The translations under genes were made by a program, and so were the position numbers. A DNA stretch of 14,726 nt from Amoebophrya sp. AT5.2. Lineage: Eukaryota > Sar > Dinophyceae > Syndiniales > Amoebophryaceae. The DNA lies in the NCBI GenBank assembly GCA_005223375.1, contig RXOD01005332.1, forward strand, positions 1-14,726. The letters are read 5' to 3'. The stretch's first letter is position 1; each line of letters starts with the position of its first letter. The notes under the pieces are model-generated. The model saw only the letters and a list, made by a program, of their open reading frames with translations. It was not told the origin of the DNA and ran no database searches. Shown here piece by piece: positions 1-2,681 of the stretch.

Positions 1-1924
1 TCAGTTGCAGTGTGGAGCCAGGACTAGGCCACGAACCGTGACTCGGCACCACATGCAGGTACACCAGCTTCTTATCTGGCTTGGCTGTGTAATAGCCTCC
101 ATCGACGCCGCTTTGCTCTTGTATCTCCTCGCAAGCTCGGGTTTTGTACACGGCCTCCCCATTGATGCTGAGATACGAGCCGATGGACTTCAGCCGATCT
201 TGAAAGGCGTCTATGATGACGCCCTCCGCGGTGGGACCCACATTCAGGAGATAGTTGCCCCCGTAGGCCACGGCGGCGACCAGTCTCCGTATAAGCTCGT
301 GCGCGGTCCAGAACTTATCTACCGGGGTGTCCTTGTTGTAGCCCCAGTTGGTCTTGTCCAGCGTATCTGCACTCTCCCACTTGTGTTTCAGCCGCGATGT
401 ATCCGCCTTCTGTCGATCGCCCCCGGAGTAGTACCCTCCATGTCGATCGGATGTGTCTGGACCCCATCGATCGTTCGTCACTATTTCGTCTTTCAACGGC
501 GACTCGTTGTACAGCCAGGCGAGGAACTCGCGCGAGGTCCAGTATTCGGTCGGATCTCCAAAAAATCCCCCGTCGCTCCAAATCACCGAAGGCTTGTACC
601 GCTCCAGGAGGTCGCGCAGCTCCGGGATCGTCTTCTCTGTCGGGAACTTTTTGGTGCTCCAATTGTTCTGGCGCTCTTGGCCGTAGACCGGATTCCACCA
701 CTCGGGCAAGGAATGGTACACACCGAACTTGAGCTTCTTGGCGCGGGTCGCGTTCGCGAGTTCGCCAACGAGGTCTCGGCCAGGCCCCAGCTCCATAGAA
801 TTCCAGTTTGGCCGGGCTGGGTCCACCCTTTTTGATGGCCACAAGCAAAAACCGTCGTGGTGCTTCGTGGTCAACACCACATACTTGGCGCCGGCCGCCT
901 CAAACAAGCCGGCCCAATCCGCAGGAACGAACTTCTTCGCGGTGAACAACTTAGCGAAATCCTCGTACTTCCTGACGTTTGGGTAATGCTGTGTCTGCCA
1001 GGCCGCAACGTCAGCTTTGCCAGCCTCAACTCCACCCGGACCCTGGCCACCATACCGGTCAATCCCGTACCACTCGGCTTCTCTCCCACCGTCGTGGGCT
1101 GGAACAGAATAGACACCCCAATGGATGAAGATACCGAACTTGGCATCATCGAACCACCCAGGCAGCGGCCGCGAGTCGATGCTATTCCATTCCGGTTTGT
1201 ACTTGCCGTTTTCGAGAATCGGTTGGAGGCTCGTGGTCCCCGAGGGCAAGCAGATGCCCTTGTGAAGTGTACCATGAGGGCCCTTCGTTGTTTGTGGCCT
1301 TCCCCGACCGCATGTGCTGAAATAGCAGGCGCCCTTATACGTGAAACAACCCGTGTTCGGCCACCAATCCTGCTCACAACCCTCGCGAGCCATGGGGTAA
1401 TTTTTTCCATCAATCTTCGGGCCAGCGGCGCACTCGATCCTGGTCATTGGCCTGTGACCTGGTGGACAGGACCCTCCCACATCATTGACAAAAACAGGGA
1501 CGCCTACTGGCGTCGGCTTCGTTTCATCGGCTGCCGCGTCCCGTTCTTTTCCGTCGGCCTCGGCGTGGGGCTGCGCCACGTCGTCTTCCGGCGCAGAATT
1601 TTTGGGGGCCGCTTTCTTCGGCTTTCTTTCATCCTCTGGCCTGTTGGCTGCCAATTCTGCGGCATCTCCTGCGCACGACCCGATGCTTTGACACAACGTC
1701 GAGGGACGAGGGTCCTCCTGGTCCGGCGGCCCGCTTTTGTTCTCCTCCCACAGCTTCCGGGCCTGGTCGGTCGTGCTGTCGTCCTCCTCCTTGGGCCGCG
1801 ATCGCAGCGCTATTGCGCTTCTGTCCTCATCCTCATTGTGCCTCCTCCGTTTCAAGAACGGCACGACCACCGCCAACCCACGAAGGGCGAGCGAGCAGCA
1901 AATCCCAAGCGGAAGGCGGTGCAT
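1..1924 (-). CDS. Alpha-L-fucosidase, GH29 family, membrane-anchored (3' end outside window)
   Basis: The enzyme hydrolyses terminal alpha-L-fucose from glycans; an N-terminal anchor suggests it acts in the secretory or endolysosomal lumen or at the cell surface. The reading frame is open from ATG 1924 to the left edge, 641 codons, with no intron. Residues ~5-22 form a hydrophobic segment followed by KRRR, a likely signal anchor. Residues ~25-150 are charged low complexity. Residues 153-225 hold seven cysteines (153, 165, 183, 193, 200, 205, 225), a module I cannot name. The GH29 domain starts near 245: FGIFIHWG at 263-270, KHHDGF at 354-359, YHSLPEWWNP, then VIWSDGGF with the presumed nucleophile Asp451, NDRWG, HGGYY and GGNYLLNVGPT. 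The pattern is closest to animal-type GH29. The end of the C-terminal beta-sandwich is missing. Start choice: this is the first ATG after an in-frame stop, and no ATG lies between it and the spliced-leader relict upstream. The acid/base residue was not assigned. Confidence 0.94.
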   Translation of the reverse strand, partial: MHRLPLGICCSLALRGLAVVVPFLKRRRHNEDEDRSAIALRSRPKEEDDSTTDQARKLWEENKSGPPDQEDPRPSTLCQSIGSCAGDAAELAANRPEDERKPKKAAPKNSAPEDDVAQPHAEADGKERDAAADETKPTPVGVPVFVNDVGGSCPPGHRPMTRIECAAGPKIDGKNYPMAREGCEQDWWPNTGCFTYKGACYFSTCGRGRPQTTKGPHGTLHKGICLPSGTTSLQPILENGKYKPEWNSIDSRPLPGWFDDAKFGIFIHWGVYSVPAHDGGREAEWYGIDRYGGQGPGGVEAGKADVAAWQTQHYPNVRKYEDFAKLFTAKKFVPADWAGLFEAAGAKYVVLTTKHHDGFCLWPSKRVDPARPNWNSMELGPGRDLVGELANATRAKKLKFGVYHSLPEWWNPVYGQERQNNWSTKKFPTEKTIPELRDLLERYKPSVIWSDGGFFGDPTEYWTSREFLAWLYNESPLKDEIVTNDRWGPDTSDRHGGYYSGGDRQKADTSRLKHKWESADTLDKTNWGYNKDTPVDKFWTAHELIRRLVAAVAYGGNYLLNVGPTAEGVIIDAFQDRLKSIGSYLSINGEAVYKTRACEEIQEQSGVDGGYYTAKPDKKLVYLHVVPSHGSWPSPGSTLQL

Positions 1925-2155
1925 TCTAATTTCGCGACCGGCGGCCGCAAAAATTCCAGCAGGAGCAGCTGTGGAAAATGAAAGTCGAAGTCCTCAAAGC
2001 GGACTTCTACTCAGCTGCAGTAAATACTTCTATTGGTTTCTGTCGGTGGAGGAGCAGGAGGTGGAGGAGTCGAAACAATAGCAAATACTAGGGGGAAGCA
2101 GGGGGAAACGGCAAGTATAGGTATCTTAAGCCAAAAAATCGAACCTCAAAAGTGC
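1925..2155 (-). other. Putative 5' UTR / leader of the fucosidase gene
   Basis: On the minus strand this stretch between the spliced-leader relict and the fucosidase ATG contains no ATG. It carries a pyrimidine-rich run around 2047-2066 and a good acceptor-like TTTTCCACAG near 1966-1975. A present-day trans-splice acceptor could lie there. It also contains a degenerate second leader-like motif, listed separately. UTR status is inferred. Confidence 0.5.
2125..2139 (-). other. Degenerate second spliced-leader-like motif
   Basis: The minus strand reads ATTTTTTGGCTTAAG, which resembles the 3' half of the leader (ATTTTGGCTCAAG) with two extra T and one C-to-T change. It lies 16 bp downstream of the intact relict in the same orientation. 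It could be an older leader from an earlier retroposition round. The low complexity of the T run makes chance possible. Confidence 0.45.
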
Positions 2156-2175
2156 CTTGAGCCAAAATGGCTACG
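2156..2175 (-). other. Genomic relict of the dinoflagellate spliced leader
   Basis: The minus strand reads CGTAGCCATTTTGGCTCAAG, identical to nucleotides 3-22 of the 22-nt leader that dinoflagellates trans-splice onto nuclear mRNAs. The two outermost bases differ (CT where the leader has a variable base then C), as expected from a truncated 5' end or decay. The base after CAAG starts GCAC rather than the GT donor of an SL RNA gene, so a leader copied from mature mRNA fits better than an SL RNA locus. It has the same orientation as the intronless fucosidase, about 230 bp upstream of its ATG. A chance 20-nt match in this window is not credible. Confidence 0.88.
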
Positions 2176-2681
2176 AGAAACAAAGCACAACTTATCAAGG
2201 AAGATGGGGACGGCACGCGTTACGAAGCCAGGCAAAGCATCGGCACTGAACCACAGACACGTCGCGGAACTGCTTCCTTTGCACGCATCCCCCGATTCTG
2301 GGACGGAAAACACAACTACGACGGACACTCGTGGGTAATCGAAATCAAAAGCAAGAGCAATGCATTTGCATTTTCCACGAGTAAGTACAAAGAAGACGGA
2401 CGCCTCGGTTTAGATGGACAGCATCTGCAAAAACGCCTGCTTTCAACAAGGCAAGGCTCCTCTCCTACTTCTATACAGTGCGGAAAATGCGCTTTCGCTC
2501 GCGCGATTCTTGAAAATAGCCGGCCATTCGTCTATCCTGGCCCAGGTATTTGTCTGCAACGATTTCTGTACTGCGCCGGAAAACGCAGCAGGTTGAAAAC
2601 AATCGTCGCTGGTGAAGACTTGCTGTCAGAAGGGTGAAGACGCGGAAAGCTAGCTCTAGTGGTGGTCCTGAGTCGTGCCCT
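2176..2681. other. Intergenic stretch between fucosidase and protease genes
   Basis: This 506-bp interval lies beyond the relict leader and ends at the protease stop codon. It presumably holds the protease 3' UTR and the left edge of the retroposed copy. A plus-strand frame of 156 codons (2167-2637) starts inside the antisense of the leader and shows no family feature. I see no RNA gene or repeat here. Confidence 0.5.

Follow-up and report, generated by a model that had tools for sequence, protein, structure and literature searches.

The window, that is, the whole stretch of DNA that was analysed, comprises all 14,726 bases of contig C1536 in an assembly of 50.7 Mb and 2759 contigs. It carries on its minus strand an alpha-L-fucosidase gene and, upstream of this gene, a relict of the dinoflagellate spliced leader (DinoSL). 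Neighbouring genes code for an aspartyl protease, a kelch protein, and a kinase, and the window has no match to Rfam families. The features of the fucosidase locus, all on the minus strand, are as follows.

2175..2228 (-): upstream block of 54 nt with a second copy at G000:C544:22957-23014(-), 88%
2156..2175 (-): DinoSL relict, bases 3-22, exact, found by motif search; reads CGTAGCCATTTTGGCTCAAG
2125..2136 (-): possible older degraded leader relict, 11/12 nt, a score reached by 156/5000 shuffles
1925..2155 (-): putative 5' untranslated leader without ATG, 61% pyrimidine
1924-1922 (-): ATG, proposed start, 231 nt downstream of the relict
2..1924 (-): uninterrupted coding sequence for alpha-L-fucosidase, truncated at the contig edge 5' of its stop codon
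155..1216 (-): GH29 catalytic domain PF01120, found by profile search and aligned to the tissue alpha-L-fucosidase 7pls
572..574 (-): aspartate aligned with that of the IWSDG motif of 7pls

The original prediction held that the fucosidase coding sequence has no intron, and this is borne out as far as the contig goes, the frame running open from 1993 down to base 2 of C1536; the stop codon and the 3' end lie beyond the contig. The PF01120 match in this frame scored 376.6 bits against a cut-off of 25.2 and is nearly full (profile positions 9-345 of 345), and we take the IWSDG aspartate to be the catalytic nucleophile. The window fucosidase and 7pls have the catalytic domain and the IWSDG motif in common, but the window fucosidase, unlike 7pls, has an additional N-terminal region, and its C-terminal end is outside the window. 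Residues 158-257, in the N-terminal region, have two distant copies (39 and 43%) in an open frame of 992 aa on C1952 (L062, L063). Among the matches listed, the closest fucosidases are the EukProt proteins g17521.t1 (75% over 73% of the query) and g17520.t1 (80% over 55%), whose consecutive numbers suggest a tandem fucosidase pair in that relative. Lower among the best 120 matches, identities of 55-58% are shown by unnamed proteins and one further EukProt entry, and about 40-51% by many animal fucosidases. As judged from these alignments the window fucosidase is of the eukaryotic type and, since its relatives are, a recent bacterial origin as the cause of the absence of introns is disfavoured.

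When the window was searched with 21 nt of the leader there was a single match, with one mismatch and on the same strand as the fucosidase, whereas none of 200 dinucleotide-preserving shuffles of the window (0/200) had a match with up to three mismatches. The exact copy of DinoSL bases 3-22 that had been reported at 2175-2156, in the orientation of the fucosidase, is therefore real. The stretch at 2136-2125 might be a second, older relict from another retroposition cycle, although the resemblance is suggestive only. It had also been claimed that no ATG lies between the relict and the start codon, and indeed the sole ATG is that of the start codon itself; however, because 224 of 2000 shuffles of the 5' untranslated leader were also free of ATG, its absence upstream of the start is weak support.

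The absence of introns has to be seen against the other genes of this assembly. Lower bounds for the neighbours were obtained from Pfam pieces of one gene that lie in separate open stretches, and these give at least one intron in the aspartyl protease gene, at least three in the kelch gene, provided that its four pieces belong to a single gene, and at least one in the kinase gene. A search for the kinase family gave 130 matches that were merged into 102 genes with a median longest frame of 453.5 aa, the best 115 of 298 candidates having been scored, so that uninterrupted domains were favoured. Open frames of at least 641 aa were found in 33 of these 102 kinase genes. Long intronless frames are thus common in the assembly and the argument from introns is weak.

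Leader-like sites and SL RNA-like genes in the assembly

The assembly has 18 exact leader 21-mers and 34 exact leader 15-mers, against 0 in each case for the reversed control, and over the whole 50.7 Mb there are 65 leader-like sites with up to three mismatches against 3 for the control. When five CCATGG variants were removed and 60 of the 65 sites were kept, 23 of 82 mismatches fell at leader positions 1 and 2 of 21 (P = 1.6e-6). Such a pile-up at the 5' end is as expected if cDNAs stop short of the cap; the alternative is that there is no selection on these bases. An enzyme source is at hand, because the assembly has 28 reverse-transcriptase matches at E <= 1e-8.

Open frames were then compared on the two strands. 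Within 1500 nt downstream, 15 of 29 leader sites have a sense frame that reaches 300 aa, as against 3 of 29 for antisense frames (paired test, P = 2e-5). These 29 sites, the window's own included, have at least 1100 nt downstream and remain from 34 hand-chosen loci after five were dropped as too short downstream; the SL RNA-like loci L002/L012, L014, L018, and L034 and also L006, which has 53 nt downstream, were left out. Three results of the same kind count against a retrogene reading. Upstream frames of at least 300 aa on the same strand were found at 7 of the 27 sites that have upstream sequence, and compared to the upstream frames the downstream sense frames are not clearly longer (P = 0.057). 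At none of seven relict sites (L081-L087) does the sense frame reach 300 aa, though it is the longer one in 6 of 7, and nine sites that have the last 13 nt only (L072-L080) show no strand bias. A pyrimidine tract before the leaders was considered and set aside as too weak (mean 0.53 vs 0.47, z about 2.2, 37 sites).

Direct repeats are few. An exact abutting direct repeat of at least 13 nt was found at 2 of 44 leader-like sites, compared to 47 of 11,400 random positions, and this too is counted against the retrogene reading; the 44 sites include SL RNA-like ones, and the test, being for exact repeats, does not count the imperfect repeat of L004 described below. On C4 an exact 15-nt direct repeat ends 1 nt before the leader and recurs 474 nt on, which is counted in favour of the retrogene reading, and on C1542 a 13-nt direct repeat extends two bases into the leader. 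Several short repeat families are headed by the leader or by its last 13 nt (L025/L029/L075/L077; L031/L032/L073; L046/L074; L026/L035; L045/L076), and these may be SINE-like. A 13-nt direct repeat of L031 is found again 250 nt after the leader start.

Some of the leader-like sites belong to SL RNA-like genes. On C139 there is one such gene consisting of leader, GT, short body, and T run, and C143 (G000:C143:20200-24650; L067, L068) has a cluster of 12 on both strands, arranged in tail-to-tail pairs, 11 of which are within three mismatches of the SL RNA body. In six C143 genes the last 13 nt of the leader (ATTTTGGCTCAAG) are exact and followed by GT, and the first half varies between genes; two C143 genes have GC after the leader, as in the window, but have the body. 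In the SL RNA-like genes on C186, C380, C1791, and C881 (L014, L018, L069, L070) the CCGTAG start is replaced by CCACCATGG, which puts an ATG within the leader. Amoebophrya A25 and A120 show trans-splicing with a leader truncated to 13 nt in transcripts (PMC7789003), and Perkinsozoa are known to have variant leaders (PMC9399869). The 13-nt leader of Amoebophrya transcripts may derive from variant leaders such as those of C143.

The DNA joint at the leader and other leader-headed genes

When 431 nt around the relict was used as a query against the assembly at E <= 0.01, the sole other place found was C544, which has the second copy of the upstream block. The homology breaks at the leader, where TTTGTTTCTC is followed by GTAGCC in the window and by AAGCGT on C544, and a single base, the C at 2175, is common to the upstream flank and the leader in the window. 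A single joined query made up of the flanks from 18 other leader loci gave non-simple second copies for two, namely, that of C1370 on C1385 (75 nt, 88%) and that of C2703 on C1096 (525 nt at 78%; with longer sequence, 744 nt at 73%); the flank of L023 gave a simple-repeat match in six places. In whole-locus alignments the C1370 and C2703 flank homologies stop at the third and the first of the 21 leader positions, respectively. The downstream sequences of the joint loci and of their copies are unrelated by blastn, the best tblastx match having an E of 0.03. The 5' end of the leader is a visible DNA joint at 3 of 19 loci.

C1385 was considered as a plain empty (pre-insertion) site and rejected, as its right side (1.3 kb) was not found in the 6.6 kb that follow the leader of C1370. 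C2703 ends within the gene, and the right flank of the window lies beyond the contig. C544 and C1385 (L089, L095, L091) have a 60-nt block in common (95%) that starts some 8 nt upstream of the joint on C1385, and their upstream regions look, from the alignments, like mosaics of short shared blocks.

Two other leader-headed genes were analysed. On C256 (L004, G000:C256:15384-16350) a leader, a 5' UTR, an intronless iscU, and 3' sequence lie between 35-nt direct repeats that are 91% identical, and the upstream repeat stops 4 nt short of the leader. The gene, whose NifU_N domain scored 168.1 bits, is the only iscU found in the assembly, and no second or parental copy was detected there; iscU is usually essential. 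Its identity to EukProt g10876.t1 is 100% over 69% of the query, and to the iscU of Amoebophrya A25 and A120 it is 91% and 88%, respectively, over 62% of the query. From these matches the organism is probably a syndinean of the Amoebophrya type. The other gene (L071, G000:C2257:6800-10200) codes for a GH6 glycosidase in one frame of 674 aa and comes after a partial and then a complete leader in a row. It, too, has no second or parental copy in the assembly, and its flanks have no 9-mer in common and hence no direct repeats. That both of these genes are single copy is counted against the retrogene reading.

The intron-containing paralogue of the fucosidase that the original prediction had proposed to look for was not found in the assembly, where the only related sequences besides C1536 are a distant domain on C1952 and, at the start of C2045, the 3' piece of a second fucosidase copy, which is 94% identical over the 138 nt common to both. 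The 3' flank of the C2045 copy has no clear poly(A) tract, the only candidate being a short A-rich stretch (L064, about 481-498) roughly 165 nt past the stop codon, and it has no 9-mer in common with the 5' flank of the window.

Origin of the leader-headed fucosidase gene

Slamovits and Keeling (2008) reportedly described DinoSL-tagged retrogenes, that is, recycled processed cDNAs. Such retrogenes are established in other dinoflagellates (PMC6050394; PMC12014239; PMC8045281), where they have a high survival and are mostly orphans, the paired fraction being 6.4 and 9.8% in two genomes of Symbiodinium (PMC6050394). We conclude that the fucosidase gene is very probably a DinoSL-tagged retrogene, mainly because of the DNA joint at the 5' end of the leader and because of the other leader-headed genes of this genome. 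Like known members (PMC6050394, PMC12014239), the window has a same-strand leader relict before an intact gene and no detectable parent; the relict does not belong to an SL RNA gene, and there is a 5' joint. The absence of an intron-bearing parental copy is counted against this reading, but such a parent is not required since known retrogenes are mostly orphans (PMC6050394) and since the assembly may be partial. The core of the original prediction, a processed copy of a once trans-spliced mRNA with an open catalytic domain, is supported mainly by the joint and the leader-headed genes, whereas its arguments from introns and from the missing ATG carry little weight.

The retrogene would have arisen in the following way. 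The ancestral fucosidase pre-mRNA would have been trans-spliced to the canonical leader, and the leader-bearing mRNA would have been reverse-transcribed into a cDNA that fell short of the first two or three bases. This cDNA would have been inserted into the genome and duplicated later, and the gene would still be under constraint as an enzyme. There is also a small chance that the leader-tagged retrogenes of this lineage are RNA-RNA chimeras. On running past the 5' end of the leader, the reverse transcriptase would switch to a second RNA at its 3' end, possibly to an outron that had been spliced off. The new gene would then come with an outron already in place, completed by the leader TAG in the role of acceptor. 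Where flank copies exist, at three loci, the homology stops within the first three leader positions, and the copies (C544, C1096, C1385) have AG within a few bases. We do not count this AG as evidence because by a rough estimate its chance is about 1/3 for each copy.

Other explanations of the locus were weighed against the retrogene. The fucosidase could be an always-intronless gene still in its place and not a transposed copy, with only its 5' end replaced when it recombined with an SL-bearing cDNA of its own. Long intronless frames being common in the assembly and a parent copy being absent, for iscU and the GH6 gene as well, speak for such a partial cDNA conversion. However, the upstream block is common to a locus with unrelated downstream sequence and ends at the relict, and iscU lies between direct repeats as inserted DNA would, and for these reasons we regard partial conversion as quite unlikely.

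It is less likely still that a fragment of an SL RNA gene or an SL-headed short repeat landed by chance before the fucosidase. Both kinds of sequence exist in this genome (the repeats being, for example, L025/L029/L075/L077), and the relict is followed by GC, not GT, like the leaders of the two C143 genes mentioned above, the sequence running on as GCACTTTTG. An SL RNA gene should have the leader, then GT and a conserved short body with a T run, and the window relict does not: there is no GT, and C1536 has no SL RNA body within three mismatches. The original prediction had named an SL RNA gene fragment as the finding that would overturn it, and no such fragment is seen. Moreover, the 166 nt searched after the relict has no second copy in the assembly at E <= 0.01, and the relict is on the strand of the fucosidase with no ATG up to the start codon. 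Chance resemblance to the leader can be practically dismissed in view of the shuffles (0/200) and the genome control counts of 0, 0, and 3.

If the gene is a retrogene, how its transcript acquires a leader today can be considered from the relict. In transcripts of known retrogenes CCATTTTGGCTCAAG mostly comes right after the new leader (PMC12014239), which in our interpretation means that joining is at the TAG of the relict. Since the window relict keeps TAG, with TTTGTTTCTC before it, the tandem arrangement of SL and relict is expected as in PMC12014239. A fresh leader is probably joined to the fucosidase mRNA at this TAG, before which lies a pyrimidine-rich stretch, and the mRNA would then start with the leader followed by CCATTTTGGCTCAAGGCACTTTTG.

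The kind of gene is already known; what is new is a fucosidase member in a syndinean-like genome, the joint of which is legible at single-base resolution. Unlike the known DinoSL-tagged retrogenes, this one is in a compact genome (65 leader-like sites over 50.7 Mb), and its 5' joint is visible as a break in homology. In a limited search of the open-licence literature we found no report of DinoSL-tagged retrogenes in Syndiniales, and a word search of Haro et al. (PMC12014239) gave neither syndini- nor Amoebophrya. The PmaSL-like genomic sequences of Perkinsus marinus (PMC3101222) are other leader sequences in another lineage. By iscU, the named organisms nearest to the window's genome are Amoebophrya A25 and A120, each of which has a single complete 22-nt DinoSL-like sequence in its genome (PMC7789003), in contrast to the 18 exact 21-mers found here. 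Leader-tagged retrogenes are now added for a syndinean-like genome, next to the single complete leader in A25 and A120 (PMC7789003). In a compact genome with so few leader sites, insertions can be read singly, with their joints, flanking repeats, and genes that, like iscU, are found only as processed copies. How a retrocopy gains a promoter and an acceptor in a trans-splicing organism is thereby made directly testable.
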